This document shows positions 2,780 through 31,213 of a stretch of DNA of 41,129 nucleotides, piece by piece. The stretch spans positions 78,849 through 119,977 of the forward strand of contig NZ_JAIEWN010000007.1 in the NCBI RefSeq assembly GCF_019599295.1, given 5' to 3'. Every line of letters begins with the position of its first letter. Position 1 is the first letter of the stretch. The notes below the pieces were generated by a model, which saw only the letters and a list, made by a program, of their open reading frames with translations, had not been told where the DNA came from and ran no database searches. A program made the translations under genes and the position numbers. Source of the stretch: Oscillochloris sp. ZM17-4. GTDB taxonomy: Bacteria; Chloroflexota; Chloroflexia; Chloroflexales; Chloroflexaceae.

Positions 2780-4318
2780 ATGGATCTACGCGGGAAGCGC
2801 ATTCTGGTGATGGGGCTGGGGGTTCACGGCGGCGGGCTGGGGTCGGCCCGGTGGCTGCTCGGCCAGGGCGCCCGCGTCACTGTCACCGATATGGCCTCGC
2901 CCGAGGCCCTGGCCGCGCCGCTCGCCCAGCTCGACTCCGCCGCCGCCGCGCTCGGCGTCAGCGTCGGCTACACCCTCGGCGAGCACCGCGCCGAGGACTT
3001 TACCTCCAGCGATCTCGTCGTGGTCAACCCCGCCGTCCGCCCGGACTCGCCCTGGCTGGCGCTCTGCCGCCAGGCCGGCGTGCCGATCGAGACGGAGATG
3101 ACCCTCTTCTTCCGGGCCTGCCCCGGCCCCATCCTCGGCGTCACCGGCACCAAGGGCAAGACCACCACCGCGCTGATGCTGGCCGCCATGCTCCGCGAGG
3201 CCTTCCCCGACACGGTGGCCGCCGGGAACCTGCGCGTCTCGGCACTGGAGGCGCTGGAGACGATCACCGCGCAGACGCCGGTGGTGCTGGAGCTGAGCAG
3301 CTTCCAGCTTGAGCGGCTGGGCGAGGCCGGGCTGAGCCCGCGCTACAGCCTGATCACGAACCTCTCGGCCGACCATATCAACTGGCACGGCTCGATGGAG
3401 GCCTACGCCAGGGCCAAGGCGCAGATCTTCGCCCACCAGGGCGCGGATGGGGTGGTGGTGCTGAGGCGGCAGGAGGCCGTCGGCAGGCGGCAGGGAGCCT
3501 CAGGCCGGGTGATCTTGTACGACGCGGTGCCGGGGGCTGAGGCCGAGGCGCGGATATCGTCTGATGGCAACTTGCTGCTGGGCGATGAGGCGCTGGCGCA
3601 GGCGGGCGACATCCGGCTGCCGGGGGCGCACAGCCGGGCCAACGCACTAGCCGCCGCCGCCCTGGCCCGCAGCTTCGGGGTTGCGCCCGCGCAGATCGCC
3701 GCCGCCCTGCGCGGCTTCGCCGGGGTCGAGCACCGGCTGGAGCTGGTGGCCGAGATCGATGGCGTGCGCTACGTGAACGACACGACGGCGACGAACCCGG
3801 CCGCCGCCCTGGCCGCGCTGGAGTCGACCGAGACGCCGATCGTGCTGATCGCCGGCGGGGCCGACAAGGAGCTGATGTTCGAGGATCTAGGCAGGGCGAT
3901 CGCCCGGCGGGTGAAGGCGCTGGTGCTGCTGAAAGGCAGCGCGACGGCGCGGCTCACACAGGCAATTGCAGATTGCAGATTGCAGATTGCAGATTGTAGG
4001 CTGCAGATGGTCGATGGGCCATATGGCGACTTCGAGCAGGCCATCCTGTCGGCGCGGGGGATGGCCGAGTCCGGGGACACGGTGCTGCTCTCGCCGGGGT
4101 GCGCGAGCTTCGGGATGTTCCGCAACGAGTTCCACCGCGGCGAGGAGTTTCGCCGGATCGTGTATGGTCTTGCGGCGGATGACGCCATCCCATCCGATGA
4201 TGCCGTCCAACCCGATGGGCATCCCGCACCCGATGGGCATCCCGCACCCGATGGGCATCCGGCGGCGCTGCTTCTGGCGATAGCCGCGATGGCGCTGCTG
4301 CTCCCGCCAGCCTCATGA
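2780..4318 (+). CDS. murD: UDP-N-acetylmuramoyl-L-alanine--D-glutamate ligase MurD, with repeat insert and C-terminal extension
   Basis: MurD adds D-glutamate to UDP-MurNAc-L-Ala. The N-terminal Rossmann-like domain begins MDLRGKRILVMGLG, and the ATPase P-loop GVTGTKGKTTT lies at 120-130. I chose ATG 2780 because upstream codons are encoded by the palindrome and lack family similarity; no clear ribosome binding site is visible. From here the protein is 512 residues, against a usual 450 or so. Two things explain the excess. A heptanucleotide array adds an in-frame segment ([17 protein letters not shown], about 396-411) in the C-terminal domain just before the segment DGPYGDFEQAI. After the expected end (EFRRIVYGL) come three PDGHPA repeats and a hydrophobic tail. 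A region around 3467-3508 (CGGCAGG units) also looks like a decayed array replacing the usual 'LNxDDP' segment. Core motifs are intact, so the enzyme is probably active. Confidence 0.9.
   Translation: MDLRGKRILVMGLGVHGGGLGSARWLLGQGARVTVTDMASPEALAAPLAQLDSAAAALGVSVGYTLGEHRAEDFTSSDLVVVNPAVRPDSPWLALCRQAGVPIETEMTLFFRACPGPILGVTGTKGKTTTALMLAAMLREAFPDTVAAGNLRVSALEALETITAQTPVVLELSSFQLERLGEAGLSPRYSLITNLSADHINWHGSMEAYARAKAQIFAHQGADGVVVLRRQEAVGRRQGASGRVILYDAVPGAEAEARISSDGNLLLGDEALAQAGDIRLPGAHSRANALAAAALARSFGVAPAQIAAALRGFAGVEHRLELVAEIDGVRYVNDTTATNPAAALAALESTETPIVLIAGGADKELMFEDLGRAIARRVKALVLLKGSATARLTQAIADCRLQIADCRLQMVDGPYGDFEQAILSARGMAESGDTVLLSPGCASFGMFRNEFHRGEEFRRIVYGLAADDAIPSDDAVQPDGHPAPDGHPAPDGHPAALLLAIAAMALLLPPAS
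3963..4009 (+). repeat. (GCAGATT)n heptanucleotide array inside murD
   Basis: About six heptads of the ATTGCAG/GCAGATT family in one orientation, the last two degenerate (gtaggct, gcagatg). The array is translated as repeats of the cyclic heptapeptide ADCRLQI. There is no opposing arm, unlike the hairpin copies elsewhere. The only GTAG variant unit falls in the phase that reads TGT-AGG, so no stop arises. It lies in the MurD C-terminal domain. Confidence 0.9.
4211..4264 (+). repeat. 18-bp tandem repeat (x3) at the murD 3' end
   Basis: Three units of cccgatgggcatcccgca (4211-4228, 4229-4246, 4247-4264; the last has a changed end) encode PDGHPA three times. The sequence just upstream (from about 4180) carries diverged relatives of the unit. 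It lies beyond the normal end of MurD and is followed by a hydrophobic stretch of about 14 residues. Confidence 0.85.
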
Positions 4319-4349
4319 TTGCTGATTGCAGATTGCAGATTGCAGATTG
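4317..4349 (+). repeat. (GCAGATT)n array between murD and ftsW
   Basis: Four to five heptads (gattgct, then gattgca units) begin inside the murD stop codon and run into the 78-base gap before ftsW. It has a single orientation with no opposing arm. It is the same family as the array inside murD 300 bases upstream. Confidence 0.85.
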
Positions 4350-4396: not shown

Positions 4397-5665
4397 ATGA
4401 CCGAACGAGCAAACAAGCCTGACTATGTGCTGCTGGCCACGGTGGGCATCCTGGTCTGTATCGGCCTGGTGATGGTCTACAGCGCCAGCTTCGTGGAGGC
4501 CTTCGCCCTCTACGAGAACCAGTACTACTATCTGCTCAGGCAGATCGTGGGGGCCTTCGTCGGCACAGCGGGCCTGCTGGTGGCCCAGCGGATCCACTAC
4601 AGCTTCTGGCGCACCTACTCGGTGCAGCTGATGGCGCTGGCCCTCGTCCTGCTCTTCCTGGTGCTCATCCTGCCGTCCTCGATGACCCAGGTCAACGGCT
4701 CGCGCTCCTGGCTGCGCTTCGGCGAGGGCGGGGTCTTCGGCCTGATCAGCATCCAGCCGACGGAGTTCACCAAGCTGGCGATCATCATCTACTTCGCCGA
4801 CTGGCTCTCGCGGCGCAGCGAGAAGCTGGGGAATGTGAGCTACGGGCTCATCCCCTTCGCCGTGATGCTCGGCCTCGTCTGCGGCCTGGTGATGCTGGAG
4901 CCGGACCTGGGCACGACGGTGGTGCTGGTCGTGATCGCCGGGGTGGTCTACTTCGCGGCCGGGGCGAATGTCTGGCACGTGCTGGGGGCGGCCGGCCTGG
5001 GCGGGGTGGCCTTCTGGCTGATGATCAATGTGGTCGGCTTTGGCAACAACATGCGGATCAAGGCCTTCCTCGATCCCTGGGCCTACTACGACGGGGCTGG
5101 CTTCCAGCCCATCCACGCGCTCTACGCTCTGGGCAGCGGCGGCATCTTCGGGGCCGGGCTCGGCCAGGGCCGGCAGAAGTTTCAGTGGCTGCCGCAGGCT
5201 CACACCGACACGATCTTCGCCATCGTGGGCGAGGAGCTCGGCCTGATCGGCACGCTGGCGGTTGTGGCGGCCTTCACCCTGATCGCCTACCGGGGCTACA
5301 AGATCGCCGGGCGTGCGCCGAGCCCCTTCGCCGCCCTGGTCGCCGTCGGCATCACCACCTGGGTCTGCTTCCAGGCCCTGATCAATATCGCGGTGACAAC
5401 CTCGCTCATCCCGTTCACCGGGCTGACGCTGCCCTTCCTCTCCTACGGCAGCAGCTCGCTGATGGCCTGTATGGTGGGCGTCGGCATCCTGCTGAATATC
5501 TCGCGCTACACGGCGCCGCACCAGGCCCAGGAGACTAGCGATGGCCCGACTGTCCGCCGGCGGCCCGCCCGCCGCATCCTCGACAATCTTCCTGTCTGGC
5601 GGGGGAACGGGCGGACACGTCTACCCAGCCCTGTCGGTGGCCGCCGCGCTCGCCGCCGGTGGTGA
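4397..5665 (+). CDS. ftsW: SEDS-family lipid II polymerase FtsW
   Basis: FtsW is the septal peptidoglycan glycosyltransferase of the SEDS family, working with a class B PBP. The protein has the multi-span membrane topology and SEDS signatures: NGSRSWLRFG, the IQPTEFTKLA segment, LEPDLGTT, the HTDTIFAIVGEELGL segment and PFLSYGSSSL near the end. ATG 4397 has GGAAGG at 4383-4388, spacing 8. The membrane core ends around residue 380. The remaining 40 or so residues are a basic tail (RRRPARRILDN...) encoded in the 125-base overlap with murG. Such a long same-strand overlap is unusual, and the tail may be a by-product of GC-rich sequence with few stops. Placement between murD and murG is the classic dcw order. 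Confidence 0.93.
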   Translation: MTERANKPDYVLLATVGILVCIGLVMVYSASFVEAFALYENQYYYLLRQIVGAFVGTAGLLVAQRIHYSFWRTYSVQLMALALVLLFLVLILPSSMTQVNGSRSWLRFGEGGVFGLISIQPTEFTKLAIIIYFADWLSRRSEKLGNVSYGLIPFAVMLGLVCGLVMLEPDLGTTVVLVVIAGVVYFAAGANVWHVLGAAGLGGVAFWLMINVVGFGNNMRIKAFLDPWAYYDGAGFQPIHALYALGSGGIFGAGLGQGRQKFQWLPQAHTDTIFAIVGEELGLIGTLAVVAAFTLIAYRGYKIAGRAPSPFAALVAVGITTWVCFQALINIAVTTSLIPFTGLTLPFLSYGSSSLMACMVGVGILLNISRYTAPHQAQETSDGPTVRRRPARRILDNLPVWRGNGRTRLPSPVGGRRARRRW

Positions 5666-6836
5666 GGGCCGCCGCCTGGTCTATGTCGGCAGCGTTGGCG
5701 GCATGGAGGAGGCGATCGTGGCCCGCGAGAGCGACCTGCCCTTCCGGGCGCTGCCGGCGGCGGCGCTGCGCGGGCGGGGGCCAGCCCAGATGGCCCGCGG
5801 GGCCGCCACGATGGCGGCGGGCACCCTGGCCGCGCGGCGGCTCATCCGCGAGCTGCGCCCGGCGGCGATCCTTGGCACCGGAGGCTATGTCTGTGTCCCG
5901 CTGTTCCTGGCCGCGAGGCTGATGGGTGTGCCGACGATGATCTACCTGCCCGATGTGGTCCCTGGGCTGGCCGTGAAGCTCCTGAGCCGGATCGCCACGC
6001 TGACGGCGGTGAATGTGGAGGATGCGTTGCCGTATTTAGGCTTTCGGGCCAACGAACGACCAATGACGAACGACCAACCCTTGCGCACTACGGCGGTCGC
6101 TCATCGCTCGTCGTTCGTCGTGGCGGGCTACCCGGTGAGGGCCGAGCTGTTCGGCCAGGATCGGGCGGCGTGTCGGCGGGCATTCGGCCTGGGCGACGGG
6201 CTGCCGGTGGCCCTGGTGTACGGGGGAAGTCGGGGGGCGCGCAGCCTCAACCGGGCGGTCGCGGCGCTGCTGCCCGACCTGCTGGAGCGCTGTCAGATCA
6301 TCCACGTCTGCGGGCGCGAGGGCGACGATGCCTGGCTGCGCGAGGCGGCGGGGCGGCTGGGGACGGAGCTGAGGGCGCGGTATGTGCTGTATCCGTACTT
6401 AGAGTCTGGAGTTGGGAGCTGGGGGGTGGGGGGTAAGGCGTCCCAACCCCCAGCCCCCAACCCCCAACCCCCAACAATGACCCAGGCATTCGGCGCGGCC
6501 GACCTGGCGGTCTGTCGGAGCGGTGCCTCGACGCTGGCCGAGCTGCCGGCGGCCGGTCTGCCGGCGGTGCTGGTGCCCTACCCCTACGTCCATCAGGATG
6601 AGAACGCCGACTACCTGGTTCGCCGGGGCGCTGCGGTGAAAGTGGGCGACTCCGCGATGCTCGGCGACGGGAGGCCGCAGGACGGGCCGCTGGCCCGCGA
6701 GGTGATCCGACTCTTAGAGAACGAACACGAGCGACAACGCATGGCTAAGCAGAGTCGGGCGCTGGCCCGGCCAGATGCGGCCCGGCATCTGGCGGAGGCG
6801 ATCAGCCGTCTGGCGACAAGGAGTGCTGGCAGATGA
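5541..6836 (+). CDS. murG: UDP-GlcNAc--lipid I N-acetylglucosaminyltransferase MurG with two in-frame repeat inserts
   Basis: MurG converts lipid I to lipid II at the inner face of the membrane. The N-terminal glycine loop FLSGGGTGGHVYPALSVA, the GTGGYVCVP segment, the GYPVR linker, the GGSRGARSLN loop and the donor-site block RSGASTLAEL with PYPYVHQDENA are all present. The usual HEQN-type acceptor motif reads YLPDVVPGL instead. The protein is 431 residues against a usual 350-370. Two inserts account for the excess: about residues 171-193 (NERPMTNDQ...HRSSF), between the two Rossmann domains, and about 289-312 (SGVGSWGVGG...NPQPPT), before the MTQAFGAADLAV helix. Both are encoded by inverted heptanucleotide arrays and both keep the frame. 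ATG 5541 overlaps ftsW; the stop overlaps the next start as ATGA. Confidence 0.93.
   Translation: MARLSAGGPPAASSTIFLSGGGTGGHVYPALSVAAALAAGGEGRRLVYVGSVGGMEEAIVARESDLPFRALPAAALRGRGPAQMARGAATMAAGTLAARRLIRELRPAAILGTGGYVCVPLFLAARLMGVPTMIYLPDVVPGLAVKLLSRIATLTAVNVEDALPYLGFRANERPMTNDQPLRTTAVAHRSSFVVAGYPVRAELFGQDRAACRRAFGLGDGLPVALVYGGSRGARSLNRAVAALLPDLLERCQIIHVCGREGDDAWLREAAGRLGTELRARYVLYPYLESGVGSWGVGGKASQPPAPNPQPPTMTQAFGAADLAVCRSGASTLAELPAAGLPAVLVPYPYVHQDENADYLVRRGAAVKVGDSAMLGDGRPQDGPLAREVIRLLENEHERQRMAKQSRALARPDAARHLAEAISRLATRSAGR
6052..6120 (+). repeat. Inverted heptad element (CGAACGA family) inside murG
   Basis: The left arm is made of imperfect 7-base units (cgaacga, ccaatga, cgaacga, 6053-6073) and the right arm of their partial reverse complements (tcgctca, tcgctcg, tcgttcg, 6097-6117). 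The whole element stays open in the murG frame and encodes the first extra segment of the protein. The spacing in multiples of 7 is what links it to the other arrays here; the base sequence is a separate family. Confidence 0.7.
6408..6474 (+). repeat. Inverted heptad element (CCCCCAA family) inside murG
   Basis: The left arm has four G-rich heptads (ggagttg, ggagctg, gggggtg, gggggta, 6408-6435). The right arm has four C-rich heptads (cccccag once, then cccccaa three times, 6447-6474). It can fold as an imperfect hairpin and encodes the second extra MurG segment, rich in Gly on the left and Pro/Asn/Gln on the right. Pure CCCCCAA arrays have no stop in any of the six frames. Confidence 0.8.
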
Positions 6837-7481: not shown

Positions 7482-7594
7482 AGGGGACAGGGGACAGGTG
7501 ACAGGGGACAGGCCGGGCATCGCTCGTCTTCCACCCGGTCTCCTCCACCCGGTCTCCTCCACCCTGTACCCTGTACCCTGTACCCTGTACCCTA
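7482..7594. repeat. Heptad-array element between the CvpA-like gene and murC
   Basis: The gap is filled by 7-base units. The left part (7482-7512) contains ggggaca-type units. The right part is nine consecutive heptads (7532-7594): cacccgg and tctcctc alternating twice, then caccctg, taccctg three times, and taccctа-type last unit (ends in a). Left G-rich and right C-rich units can pair imperfectly. The array ends 4 bases before the murC ATG and leaves no room for a normal ribosome binding site. The same GGGTACA unit recurs after the TetR gene (27765-27787). Confidence 0.85.
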
Positions 7595-11929: not shown

Positions 11930-12002
11930 ATTGCAGATTGTAGATTGTAGATTGCAGATTATTTTGAGACCGATCTGCAATCTGCAATCTGCAATCTGCA
12001 AT
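11930..12002. repeat. Inverted (GCAGATT)n hairpin between ftsQ and ftsA
   Basis: The left arm 11930-11959 has four heptads, two of them gtagatt. The right arm 11973-12002 has four pure units in reverse complement. The 30-base arms pair throughout if T-G is allowed, around a 13-base loop. The element fills nearly the whole ftsQ-ftsA gap and ends 14 bases before ftsA. With no T-tract, termination is unproven. Confidence 0.92.
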
Positions 12003-12016
12003 CGGAAGAGAAGCCA

Positions 12017-14233
12017 ATGCAGCGTACCATCGTCGGAATTGATGTCGGGACCACGAAGGTCTGCACGATTGTCGCCCAGGTCTCGGACTCGGGCAGCATG
12101 AATATCCTCGGGGTCGGCCTTACGCCGAGCAAGGGGCTTGATAAGGGCGTGGTGGTCAACATCGATGACGCCGTGAATGCGATCGCCACCAGCGTCGAGA
12201 AGGCCGAGCGGCTGAGCGGCTACCGCATCGGCACGGCCTTCGTGGGGGTCGCGGGCCGGCACATCTCCTCGCTCAACAGCCGGGGCGTGGTGGCGGTGCA
12301 GCGCCCCGATCACGAGATCACCCGTAATGACGTGGCCCGGGCGGTCGAGTCGGCCCAGGCGGTGGCCATCCCGACCCAGCGCGAGATCATCCACGTCATC
12401 CCGCGGGCTTATGTGGTGGACGGCCACGAGGGCATCCGCGATCCGATCGGCATGAGCGGCTTCCGCCTGGAGGTGGAGACCCACATTGTCACCGGCGAGG
12501 TGATGGCCATCCAGAACCTGATCAAGAGCGTGCAGAAGGCCGGCGTCGAGATCGATGACCTGGTGCTCCAGCCGCTGGCCTCGGGCGAGGCGGTGCTGAC
12601 GGCCGAGGATAAGGACCGCGGGGTGATGCTGGTGGACATGGGCGGCGGCACCACCGACATGGCGATCTTTGTGCAGGGCGGCGTCTGGCACACGAGCGTG
12701 CTGCCGGTGGGCGGCACCCATTTCACCAACGACATCGTGTACGTCCTGCACACGCCCCACAACACCGCAGAGTACCTCAAGCTGAAGTACGGATCGGCGA
12801 TCGCCGGCGACCCGCCCGCCGACGATGACGCGTCGGACCTGATCGACGCCGAGAGCCTGACCGTGGGCGAGAAGCAACAAATCAGCCGCCACCTGCTCAA
12901 CGAGATCATCCAGGCCCGCGCCGAGCAGGTGGTCGAGCTTATCTATAACGAGATCAAGCGCAGCGGCTACGAGGGTATGCTGCCCGCCGGGATCGTGCTG
13001 ACGGGCGGGGCGGCTCAGCTGAGCGGCTTCGACGACCTGGTGCGCGAGATGCTGGGCATGCCGGTGCGGATCGGCGTCCCGGGCAACCTGACCGGGCTGG
13101 CCGACTCGCTGGATAGCCCGTCCTACGCGACCGGCGTGGGGCTGCTGCGCTGGGGGGCTCGCCACGGGCTCTCGATGCTTGGGACAAGCCACCGCTCGGA
13201 TGAGCGGCAGGGCTGGGGGAATGTCTACGAGCGCTTCAAGGGGTGGATGCGGGAGTTTCTTGGCGGCTCTGGTGATGGATATCGACGATGTGCAGATCGA
13301 CCAGCGCGGCAAGCGGGCGGCGCCGCGCTTCATCGGGCGGCTGCGCATGGAGGCCCAGGCCGCCCACGATGTGGTGGCGCCACACTTTCGGAACCTGGGC
13401 TTCACCGCGCTGCTCCAGGAGGATCGCCGGGGCGTGGCCCTGGAGGCGCTGCCGGGCGTGTTCAGCCCCGCCCCCTCGCGGCTCTGGGTGGCCCTGCTGC
13501 TCTTCGCCCTGACCATCGTCTCCACCATCGCCGTCGGCGGCCAGGACCTGGTGGACGGCCAGGCGGTCTTCAACTGGGGCTACGGGCTCTCGTACAGCGC
13601 GGCCCTGCTCGGCATCCTGCTGGCCCACGAGCTCGGCCACTACATCGTGGCCAGGCGGGCCGGCGTGGCGGTGAGCTACCCGTTCTTCATCCCGCTGCCT
13701 CCGCCGGTCGGCATCCTCGGCACGATGGGCGCCTTCATCTCGATCAAGGAGCCGGTGCCCAACCGGCGCACGCTGCTGGCCATCGCCATCGCCGGCCCCC
13801 TGGCCGGCCTGGCCGTCACCATCCCGGTGCTGCTGATCGGCCTCAGCCTCTCGGAGGTCCACAGCCTGGCCGAGATGCGCCAGGCCATGCCCGGCCAGGT
13901 CTACTTCACCGAGGGCAACTCGCTGATCTACGCCGCCGCCAAGCTGCTCGTCTTCGGGCGGGTGCTGCCCGGCGGCGGCGAGGATGTCTTCCTGCACCCG
14001 GTGGCCATGGCCGGCTGGGCGGGGCTGCTCGTCACCGGCCTGAACCTCATCCCGGCCGGGCAGCTCGACGGCGGGCACATCTTCTTCTCGCTGTTCGGGC
14101 CGCGGGCGGCCCAGATCGCCAGCATGATCATCGCCGTGCTGCTGCTGGCCATGGGCTTTATCTGGAGCGGCTGGTTCCTCTGGGCGGTGCTGGTGGCCCT
14201 GCTCGGCCGGGCCCGCGCGCCCCTGCGCAATGA
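12017..14233 (+). CDS. ftsA: Cell division protein FtsA with lost stop codon (natural end near 13262)
   Basis: FtsA is the actin-like protein that anchors FtsZ to the membrane. Residues 1-415 or so match the family: phosphate loop VGIDVGTTKVCTIVAQV, GVMLVDMGGGTTDMAIF, the adenosine motif GIVLTGGAAQLSGF, and a C-terminal amphipathic membrane helix (VYERFKGWMREFL). Proteins of the family end right there. Here the frame stays open to 14233, which would add about 320 residues that are simply the out-of-frame reading of the overlapping protease gene. A TGA at 13273-13275 overlaps the protease ATG as TGATG but is one base out of register, suggesting loss of one base near the 3' end of ftsA or a sequencing error. 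ATG 12017 has GGAAGAG at 12004-12010. No ftsZ follows. Confidence 0.88.
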   Translation: MQRTIVGIDVGTTKVCTIVAQVSDSGSMNILGVGLTPSKGLDKGVVVNIDDAVNAIATSVEKAERLSGYRIGTAFVGVAGRHISSLNSRGVVAVQRPDHEITRNDVARAVESAQAVAIPTQREIIHVIPRAYVVDGHEGIRDPIGMSGFRLEVETHIVTGEVMAIQNLIKSVQKAGVEIDDLVLQPLASGEAVLTAEDKDRGVMLVDMGGGTTDMAIFVQGGVWHTSVLPVGGTHFTNDIVYVLHTPHNTAEYLKLKYGSAIAGDPPADDDASDLIDAESLTVGEKQQISRHLLNEIIQARAEQVVELIYNEIKRSGYEGMLPAGIVLTGGAAQLSGFDDLVREMLGMPVRIGVPGNLTGLADSLDSPSYATGVGLLRWGARHGLSMLGTSHRSDERQGWGNVYERFKGWMREFLGGSGDGYRRCADRPARQAGGAALHRAAAHGGPGRPRCGGATLSEPGLHRAAPGGSPGRGPGGAAGRVQPRPLAALGGPAALRPDHRLHHRRRRPGPGGRPGGLQLGLRALVQRGPARHPAGPRARPLHRGQAGRRGGELPVLHPAASAGRHPRHDGRLHLDQGAGAQPAHAAGHRHRRPPGRPGRHHPGAADRPQPLGGPQPGRDAPGHARPGLLHRGQLADLRRRQAARLRAGAARRRRGCLPAPGGHGRLGGAARHRPEPHPGRAARRRAHLLLAVRAAGGPDRQHDHRRAAAGHGLYLERLVPLGGAGGPARPGPRAPAQ

Positions 14234-14339: not shown

Positions 14340-14414
14340 GAATTGCAGATTGTAGATTGCAGATTGCAGATTGGCCGGCCAAATCTGCAATCTGCAATCT
14401 ACAATCTGCAATTC
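14340..14414. repeat. Inverted (GCAGATT)n hairpin with covarying unit
   Basis: The arms 14340-14372 and 14382-14414 are perfect 33-base reverse complements around a centre of ggccggcca. The left arm has one gtagatt unit at position two, and the right arm carries the matching aatctac, so the base pair changed on both sides. It lies between the protease stop (14334-14336) and the promoter of the next gene. Confidence 0.93.
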
Positions 14415-17001: not shown

Positions 17002-20298
<3,297 letters not shown>

Positions 20299-27759: not shown

Positions 27760-27764
27760 GACAA

Positions 27765-27787
27765 GGGTACAGGGTACAGGGTACAGG
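27765..27787 (+). repeat. Short (GGGTACA)n heptad array after the TetR gene
   Basis: Three full gggtaca units and a partial one start 6 bases after the stop. It is the complement of the taccctg units before murC (7560-7594), so this is a second locus of that heptad family. The rest of the gap to 27845 holds nothing recognisable. Confidence 0.8.
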
Positions 27788-28990: not shown

Positions 28991-31183
28991 TCACCGCCCG
29001 CCGCGCAGGCGGCCGGCGAGGCCGCTGTAGCGGTCCTGCACCTCGTGGTTGGCCACGGCCCGGGCCACGGCCCGCCGGTCGCCGGCGATCACGGCCAGCT
29101 GGCGCGCCCGCGTCACCGCCGTGTAGAGCAGGTTGCGCTGGAGCATGGCGTAGTGCTGCATGAGCATGGGCAGCACGATCGCGGGGTACTCGCCGCCTTG
29201 GCTCTTGTGGACGCTGAGGGCGTAGGCCAGGGCCAGCTCGTCGAGGATGGCGAAGTCGTAGGGCACGCTGCGTCCATCCTCGAACTGCACGTGCAGCTGC
29301 TCCTCGCCGTGATCGATCGCCGCCACCACGCCCACGTCACCGTTATACACGTCCAGGTCATAGTTATTGCGCTGCTGGATGACCCGGTCGCCGGTGCGGA
29401 AGAGGCTCATGCCGAAGCGCTTCTCGATCTTGCCGGGCGCCTCAGGGTTGAGCGCCTCCTGGAGCAGCTTGTTGAGCTGGAGCACGCCGGCCGGCCCCTT
29501 GTGGGTGGGCGAGAGCACCTGGATGTCGCGGCGCGGGTCGAGCCCGAAGCGGCGCGGGATGCGCTCGGCCACCAGCTCCACCACCATCTGGGCGCAGCGC
29601 TCGGCCTCGGCGGCGGCGAAGAAGAAGAAGTCGCTGTGGCCCGAGAACTCGGGCGGCTCGCCGAGGTTGATCCGGCGGGCGCTCTCGGCGATCCCGCTGC
29701 CGGCGGCCTGGCGGAAGATCTCGTGCAGGTGGACGCTGGGCACCGCCCCGCTGTCGAGCAGGTCACGCAGCACCCGGCCGGGGCCGACGCTCGGCAGCTG
29801 GTCGGCGTCGCCCACCAGCAGCAGGTGGGCCTGGGGCGGCAGGGCCTTGAGCAGATGGTTGGCCAGGAGCACATCGAGCATGCTGACCTCATCGATCACC
29901 AGCAGGTCGCACTCCAGGGGCCAGTCGGCGTTGCGGCGGAACAGGCCGCTGGCGCCGGGGGCGTACTCCAGCAGGCGGTGGATGGTGCGCGCGGGCGCGC
30001 CGGTGGCCTCGGTGAGCCGCTTGGCGGCCCGCCCGGTGGGCGAGGCCAGCAGGCAGCGGTAGCCCCTGGCGGCCAGCAGCACCGTCACCGCGCGCAGGGT
30101 CATCGTCTTGCCGGTGCCGGGGCCGCCGGTGAGCACGCTCACCTTGGAGGTCAGGGCCATGCGCACGGCGTCCTGCTGACGCTCGCTCAGGCGGATCTCG
30201 CGCCGCTCGGCGAGGTGCGCGAAGACGTCGCCCCAGCGGGCCTGGGCGTAGAAGCCGGCGATGTCCGAGGGCGCGCGGGCCTGGCGAATGATCGCGGCGG
30301 CCACGCCGGTCTCGGCCATGGCGAGCGGGGGCAGGTAAATTGCAGATTGCAGATTGTAGATTGTAGATTGCGAGCCCGGCTCTCCATCAACCTGCAATCT
30401 GCAATCTGCAATCTGCAATTGAAGCCCCTCGGCGGCCAGATCCTCTGTGATGTCGAGGATATCCGTAGCGCGGCGGGTCAACTCCCCGGCGGGCAGGTAG
30501 CAGTGGCCGTCGTCGGTGGCCTGGCCGAGGGTGTGGCGCAGGCCGGCGCCGATGCGCTGGGGGTCGTCGGGGGCCACGCCGAGGCCGGCGGCGATCTTGT
30601 CGGCGGTGAGGAAGCCGATGCCGTAGACCTCATCGGCCAGGCGGTAGGGCGTGTCGCGCACCACGGCCATGGCGGCGTCGCCGTACTGCTTGTAGATGCG
30701 GACGGCCAGGCCGGTGGGCAGGCCAAGATCCTGGAGGAAGAGCATGACCTCCTTGATCTGCTGCTGGGAGCGCCAGGCGGCCTTGATCACCTCGACCTTG
30801 CGCCGCCCCAGGCCGGGCACCTCGACCAGCCGGTCGGGCTCGCGGTCGAGCACGTCCAGCGTGTACTTGCCGAAGGTCTCGGTGATCTTCTTGGCGGTGG
30901 AGGGGCCGACGCCCTTGATCAGGCCGCTGCCGAGGTAGCGGCGCATGCCGTCGATGGTGGCCGGCATGAGCGTGTGGTAGCCGCTCACCAGGAACTGGCG
31001 GCCGTGCTCGCGGTGCTCCTGCCACTCGCCCTCAAGCGAGAGCGTCTCGCCGGGGCGCACGCCGATCAGCTTGCCGACGATCGTCACCAGGTAGGCCTTG
31101 CCGCTGGGGGTCAGGCGGGCCACCAGGTAGCCGTCGTCGTCGCTCTGGAAGGTGATCCGTTCGAGGGTGCCCTCTAAAAGCAT
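28991..31183 (-). CDS. recD2: RecD2-type SF1B DNA helicase, with in-frame repeat insert
   Basis: RecD2 is a 5'-3' helicase of the RecD/TraA family acting without RecBC. The 730-residue protein has the RecD2 N-terminal region (OB-like start, helix-hairpin-helix segments YLGSGLIKGVGPSTAKKI and VPGLGRRKVEVI). Walker A is GGPGTGKT (353-360), then the Q/III region LLVIDEVSML, LLLVGDADQLPSVGPG and, near the end, LAYALSVHKSQGGEYP and LLYTAVTRAR. The insert [12 protein letters not shown]...IYNLQSAIY (about 255-283) lies between the HhH region and the helicase core and is encoded by a heptanucleotide hairpin. ATG 31183 sits directly against another heptad array, leaving no Shine-Dalgarno. A possible -10 (TATACT, complement of 31226-31231) lies upstream. 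Confidence 0.93.
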   Translation of the reverse strand: MLLEGTLERITFQSDDDGYLVARLTPSGKAYLVTIVGKLIGVRPGETLSLEGEWQEHREHGRQFLVSGYHTLMPATIDGMRRYLGSGLIKGVGPSTAKKITETFGKYTLDVLDREPDRLVEVPGLGRRKVEVIKAAWRSQQQIKEVMLFLQDLGLPTGLAVRIYKQYGDAAMAVVRDTPYRLADEVYGIGFLTADKIAAGLGVAPDDPQRIGAGLRHTLGQATDDGHCYLPAGELTRRATDILDITEDLAAEGLQLQIADCRLQVDGEPGSQSTIYNLQSAIYLPPLAMAETGVAAAIIRQARAPSDIAGFYAQARWGDVFAHLAERREIRLSERQQDAVRMALTSKVSVLTGGPGTGKTMTLRAVTVLLAARGYRCLLASPTGRAAKRLTEATGAPARTIHRLLEYAPGASGLFRRNADWPLECDLLVIDEVSMLDVLLANHLLKALPPQAHLLLVGDADQLPSVGPGRVLRDLLDSGAVPSVHLHEIFRQAAGSGIAESARRINLGEPPEFSGHSDFFFFAAAEAERCAQMVVELVAERIPRRFGLDPRRDIQVLSPTHKGPAGVLQLNKLLQEALNPEAPGKIEKRFGMSLFRTGDRVIQQRNNYDLDVYNGDVGVVAAIDHGEEQLHVQFEDGRSVPYDFAILDELALAYALSVHKSQGGEYPAIVLPMLMQHYAMLQRNLLYTAVTRARQLAVIAGDRRAVARAVANHEVQDRYSGLAGRLRGGR
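30338..30420. repeat. Inverted (GCAGATT)n hairpin inside recD2
   Basis: The 29-base arms 30338-30366 and 30392-30420 surround a 25-base loop. Two adjacent left-arm units are gtagatt; the right arm is pure. Read on the minus strand the element is open and supplies about 30 residues between two RecD2 domains. Confidence 0.92.
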
Positions 31184-31213
31184 TGCAGATTGCAGATTGC
31201 AGATTGCAGATTG
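31182..31213. repeat. (GCAGATT)n array abutting the recD2 start codon
   Basis: Four attgcag units plus attg begin within the recD2 start codon (31181-31183) and extend upstream. It has a single orientation. On the recD2 mRNA it would be the last 30 bases of the leader, CU- and A-rich with no purine-rich ribosome site. Confidence 0.9.

Follow-up and report, generated by a model that had tools for sequence, protein, structure and literature searches.

The murG gene and its two heptad elements

The window analyzed here, a stretch of 41,129 nucleotides, lies in the 6.7-Mb draft genome of the filamentous green bacterium Oscillochloris sp. ZM17-4 (G000), whose genus also includes Ca. Oscillochloris fontis (G002) and Chloroflexales bacterium ZM16-3 (G005). 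It contains a dcw cluster in which murG, an essential cell-wall gene, is a single intact open frame of 431 codons, and no second full MurG was found in the G000 genome. Two elements built of tandem 7-base units (heptads) lie in frame within this gene:

5541..6836, + strand: murG, intact frame with both elements (MurG domains detected; AlphaFold2 model similar to the MurG structures of E. coli and P. aeruginosa)
6052..6077, + strand: left arm of element 1, heptads ACGAACG/ACCAATG, ACGAACGACCAATG ACGAACGACCAA (sequence, period-7 score)
6078..6094, + strand: spacer of element 1 (sequence; alignable in part with G005 and G003)
about 6095..6120, + strand: right arm of element 1, 79% complementary to the left arm over 24 nt
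about 6408..6433, + strand: left arm of element 2, GGGGGTT/GGGAGCT type, GGAGTTGGGAGCTGGGGGGTGGGGGG (period-7 score, DNA fold)
6434..6441, + strand: short spacer of element 2 (sequence)
6442..6475, + strand: right arm of element 2, about five copies of CCCCCAA, CCCAACCCCCAGCCCCCAACCCCCAACCCCCAAC

Element 2 had a period-7 score of 19, far above the maxima of 9 from 1000 local shuffles and of 13 from 200 shuffles of the whole gene; its DNA fold had a z of -2.6. For element 1, the score of 10 was just above the local shuffle maximum of 9, and the DNA fold was no better than that of shuffles (z = -1.0; RNA z = -2.1). A tandem signal barely above the shuffles and a DNA fold no better than theirs mark element 1 as a degenerate copy, of which homologues are present at the identical codon in G005 and G003.

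Compared with relatives that lack the inserts, MurG has about 15 extra residues at site 1 and about 12-19 at site 2, and its conserved motifs are undisturbed by both elements. The AlphaFold2 model, for which 36 sequences were used (mean pLDDT 85.9), has the normal MurG fold, with 1f0k and 3s2u as the best structure matches. The inserts fall between secondary-structure elements of this model, at about residues 171-193 and 289-312, with low-confidence block-mean pLDDT values of about 54-65 (site 1) and 38-53 (site 2), and both are predicted to form flexible loops. The preliminary description of this gene, which had read the two elements as real in-frame segments extra to a normal MurG and had called for modelling of the loops, is borne out here by the open frame, the located arms, the distance of element 2 from shuffles, the shorter loops of insert-free relatives, the intact motifs and the predicted flexibility.

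Site 1 is occupied in G000, G005 and G003, and site 2 in G000, G005, G003, G004 and G001. The right-arm units at site 2 are CCCCCAA in G000, GACTCCC in G005, CCCCAAT/CCCCCAA in G004 and GTCACCG in G001. Neither finding that would have counted against the preliminary description came about. Identical inserts were not found in distant MurG sequences in this comparison. As to the frameshift that the description had envisaged, the frame is open in G000, G005, G003 and G004, but the G001 copy is out of frame. There (G001:C388, L105), site 2 holds a long GTCACCG/GTCACCA array and the frame is off by 2 (mod 3), which may reflect either a collapsed repeat assembly in a draft metagenome bin or true variation in heptad length. 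Short reads may fail to resolve arrays of this kind.

Heptad hairpins in the window and across the genome

In-frame heptad elements were identified in four genes of the window (murG, murD, carB and recD2). Together with the arrays located outside genes, the other elements of the window are:

3965..4008, + strand: ATTGCAG array lying in frame within murD (at this position both arms are ATTGCCG in G004)
4316..4349, + strand: ATTGCAG array directly after murD
7482..7593, + strand: intergenic pair AGGGGAC ... ACCCTGT; G005 and G003 are without heptads there
11930..12003, + strand: intergenic ATTGCAG/CTGCAAT hairpin before ftsA, common to G005 and G003
14342..14412, + strand: intergenic ATTGCAG/CTGCAAT hairpin
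17595..17668, - strand: in-frame heptad hairpin in carB, with a different unit in G005 (DNA fold z = -10)
27764..27787, + strand: single AGGGTAC array after a putative TetR-type regulator gene (by its sequence)
30339..30419, - strand: in-frame heptad hairpin in recD2, common to G005 (DNA fold z = -8.8)
31182..31213, + strand: ATTGCAG array upstream of recD2

The arms of the carB and recD2 hairpins are imperfect mirrors at variant positions. The ftsA frame (12017-14233) has 738 codons, extends far beyond the FtsA domains and crosses the next gene, an M50 peptidase in another frame; ftsZ was not seen directly after ftsA in the window.

The genome statistics cover part of G000 (about 1.1 Mb) and part of G005 (about 0.57 Mb), with one setting each for the array score, pairing distance and flank matching thresholds; p-values are nominal, and several of the relatives are metagenome bins. 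This Oscillochloris-type genome has tandem 7-base arrays at a density of roughly 260 per Mb. We counted 234 arrays of period 7 in 1.09 Mb of G000 and at most 17 for every other period from 4 to 24; the 0.57 Mb of G005 gave 114 arrays of period 7 and no more than 11 for each of the other periods from 5 to 14. A contig with 65 arrays had 0-2 after shuffling. Most neighbouring arrays within 150 nt (71 of 85 pairs) were inverted with an identical unit (55) or one differing by a single substitution (16), the remainder being direct (3) or different (11). Arrays were also denser between genes (about 595 per Mb) than in genes (106 per Mb) according to heuristic gene calls.

At least 39 units are present, the commonest being AATCTGC, AACATTC and ACAGGGG, and the spacers of 104 hairpins are mutually unrelated with the exception of one clear pair, on which ground a mobile hairpin with a fixed spacer was rejected. 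Since the units are many and the spacers unrelated, the hairpins are not copies of one mobile sequence. The earlier proposal of a general mechanism in place of such a sequence is partly supported, the process being tied to length 7. Its wording that any 7-base unit would serve goes too far, since each genome is dominated by a few families (AATCTGC in G000, with 69 of 270 arrays, and GGGAGTC in G005).

About 14 full hairpins lay well within called genes in 1.1 Mb, as judged from heuristic gene calls with no dedicated gene finder. By such calls, 10 of 14 full hairpins well inside genes were stop-free, compared with 39 of 88 elsewhere; stop-free units were rejected as a test of selection in genes, the argument being circular for single arrays. 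Intrinsic terminators were also rejected, as the 3' side was T-rich in only 1 of 104 hairpins and convergent gaps were not strongly preferred. The same applies to loss of the hairpin nuclease SbcD, which is present in 39 of 41 genomes, and to loss of MutL, with MutL-family matches in 40 of 41 genomes, including the heptad-poor G002, the G000 match falling on both sides of an assembly gap. In viral contigs, a scan detected two of the units, each in few copies.

Other repeats were noted in passing. In G000, mutL (C150:164788-164900) contains AACATTC and ACAGGGG arrays beside a run of N, and G005 mutL has GGAGTC-type arrays at the same place with the frame open. Non-heptad dispersed repeats of about 110-135 nt, MITE-like and in tens of copies, are present in G005 (L033:19400-19542 and 19722-19832; L051:1430-1558).

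Conserved sites and changing units in related species

Most aligned blocks of G000 and G005 are 80-94% identical. Among their matched gaps, heptads were present in both species in 24, in G000 alone in 20, in G005 alone in 12 and in neither in 87, a co-occurrence with Fisher p = 3.7e-7 (nominal), and in 15 of the 24 shared gaps the two species did not share a single unit family. Across a broader set of 48 site pairs, the unit was the same in 19, differed by one substitution in 8, by two in 9 and by more in 12; the 8 pairs with one substitution compare with 2.7 expected by permutation. Where units were the same or near, the spacer was usually conserved (9 pairs, against 1 with an inverted spacer), and no spacer conservation was found in pairs with unrelated units. 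These last pairs may represent loss and fresh gain and not rewriting, because their spacers are not conserved either. From this behavior of the spacers we distinguish two regimes, i.e., a well-supported drift in place and a replacement that may be due either to rewriting or to loss and regain. At C150:4803-4915 of G000, an AGGGGAC hairpin has a 53-nt spacer that is inverted relative to G005:C117.

The clearest site is C150:56176, where a heptad hairpin starts at the identical base after the same flank, with the register kept, in five species and is absent from G002. Its units are AGGTAAC in G000, AGGTAAA/AGGCAAA in G005, ATGCAAC in G003, AGGCAAC/GGGTAAC in G004 and ATGCAAA in G001. Between G000 and G005 the flanks and spacer are nearly identical, and almost all units in both arms differ by one base. 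At the murD site, likewise, both arms read ATTGCCG in G004 and ATTGCAG in G000.

Some families are private to a species. The pattern (GGGAGTC)3 had 268 matches in G005 and none in 60 other genomes searched. The counts of (ATTGCAG)3 were 630 in G000, 178 in G005, 127 in G004, 30 in G001, 5 in G003 and 1 in G002, and 210 in G016 vs 0 in G027 of the same genus. Overall, G000, G005, G004, G016 and G007 are rich in heptads, and G002 and G027 are poor in them. The reversed control pattern (CTGAGGG)3 was itself abundant in G000, G004, G015 and G034, and is therefore another heptad family met by accident. GGGAGTC-type arrays of G005 mostly fell where G000 has other heptads; this was so for 8 of the 9 gaps mapped, the base rate being 31% (p = 5e-4). 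Of 21 such elements mapped, 13 lay at G000 heptads (12 of other families, 1 shared). Traces of G000 units at G005 sites exceeded permutation, an example being AGGGGACAGG beside a GGGAGTC array (C150:52234).

In summary, length 7 alone is favored, the two arms of a pair have one and the same unit, and the sites are retained from one species to another. At a fixed site, both arms change their unit together, and some units have expanded in single species. To judge from these sequence comparisons, site and repeat length seem to be conserved while the letters turn over. This departs from the preliminary description, which took each murG element as a separate insertion: several elements are old, common to species and have units that drifted in place, and the two units in murG need not have arrived independently of each other, as sites 1 and 2 are both occupied in relatives.

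Origin of the hairpins and their meaning

The arrays share the properties of STRR-type repeats, namely dispersed tandem 7-base units of several families per genome (39 units), mainly intergenic, and the CCCCAAT and TTGGTCA types presumably resemble cyanobacterial STRR families. STRR heptanucleotide repeats are known in cyanobacteria, GGGAATC and GGGGA(C/T)T heptads in Xanthomonas and Nostoc (PMC4692102) and TAACTGA repeats in Beggiatoaceae (PMC4679880, which cites a published proposal that seven bases may be a polymerase contact length). All of these are tandem 7-base units found genome-wide, mostly between genes and partly in them, and those of Xanthomonas also form convergent inverted pairs. 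Here, however, dozens of families are found together, arrays are as a rule paired in inverted orientation, sister species use different units at orthologous sites, and elements lie in frame in murG, murD, carB and recD2. In the P6b stem-loop of the Nostoc trnL intron, a hairpin composed of heptad repeats, one heptad class has repeatedly been replaced by another (PMC4476775), in both arms at a fixed site as here, although this concerns two classes at a single RNA locus, whereas the present case is genome-wide, includes protein genes and involves many classes and species-private families. The cyanobacterial and xanthomonad repeats and the Nostoc hairpin are the nearest known systems. For heptads of Chloroflexales, we found in the literature only a note on heptamer-derived GATAGRA satellites in Chloroflexus aurantiacus, of the same bacterial family (PMC6749651); the passages of that source concerning them describe satellites of one unit and give no account of hairpin pairing or unit turnover.

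We consider it probable that these are resident hairpins of the STRR kind at long-lived tolerated sites, kept at a length of 7 by slippage and alike in both arms by template switching, with invasion by species-specific families and, in genes, filtering for frame. On our best reading, the tolerated sites are gaps between genes and disordered protein loops, and the murG elements are members of this resident class. As the pattern suggests, slippage in 7-base steps would homogenize an array, and a stalled strand could switch template to the opposite arm, whereby the unit would be copied across and the spacer might flip. An occasional switch to an array elsewhere would import a new family, and within genes the only survivors would be copies that preserve the reading frame without introducing stops. 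A dedicated transposase would be unnecessary. Several observations do not fit easily: arms can be imperfect mirrors at variant positions, as in carB and recD2; at C150:56176, some alternating variants survive while a different position of the unit is changed in almost all copies, a pattern not expected from simple slippage; and the rise of one unit to hundreds of copies in one species lies outside this explanation.

It is possible, though rather unlikely, that whole hairpins disappear and others are inserted independently, the sites coinciding because tolerant gaps and loops are few. The unrelated spacers of unrelated-unit pairs, the non-heptad hairpins at some sister-species sites and the variable MurG and CarB loop lengths in distant genera without heptads would agree with this, and shared sites could in part reflect few insertion-tolerant places, some of which hold non-heptad hairpins in other species. 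Such turnover leaves unexplained the conserved spacer, register and flanks around changed units, as well as the excess of single substitutions and the excess over base rate in mapped gaps. The non-heptad hairpins concern C1:327498 and C150:71205, where G000 has heptad hairpins and G005 a different palindrome (GAGAGGGTCTCAGGGAG...), in one case within a called gene and in the other as what looks like a terminator with a T-run; at C150:71205 a heptad hairpin thus swaps with a normal-looking terminator.

We regard as improbable a sequence-indifferent writing of 7 bases in trans that overwrites resident hairpins with the currently active heptad, so that species respell them, essential genes included. 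Still less probable is a dedicated writer, e.g., a reverse transcriptase or a terminal transferase using a template of 7 bases that changes between species, adding the heptads: strict length 7, indifference to sequence and species-private families would suit it, but variation within arrays suggests decay and slippage and not clean writing, and no candidate was found, the Y1 transposase being the sole gene searched. Classical mobile palindromes are very unlikely, even though dispersed hairpins, in frame in genes and with a patchy distribution, recall them. REPINs are likewise short dispersed inverted pairs (PMC3116915), but Y1_Tnp (PF01797), present in 25 of 41 family genomes, has no match in G000, the most heptad-rich genome, which led us to reject RAYT/REPIN, and no conserved core of two palindromic repeats was found among the many unrelated units and spacers. 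For the same reason, the conserved terminal inverted repeats and internal sequence of MITEs are lacking; both definitions are already contradicted. At the compared sites, junctions read by eye showed no constant target-site duplication. Rickettsia palindromic elements, also in frame inside genes, are conserved families of about 150 bp that encode a conserved peptide (PMC10969869), whereas here period and inversion are conserved, not sequence, and peptides differ between loci and species. Chance or assembly artefact, which draft genomes and the out-of-frame metagenome bin G001 might suggest, is already refuted by the shuffles, the same sites in independently assembled genomes and the open frames.

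Bacterial heptad repeats have been noted for decades, and to our knowledge there is no settled account of their length of 7 or of their spread. Here, close and partly cultured species have different heptads at the same sites, sometimes with flanks and spacers intact. Such species pairs make slippage, copying from arm to arm and spread between loci separately testable. As far as sequence can indicate, resident heptad hairpins may also offer a route by which essential proteins gain disordered, fast-changing loops while the gene stays open.
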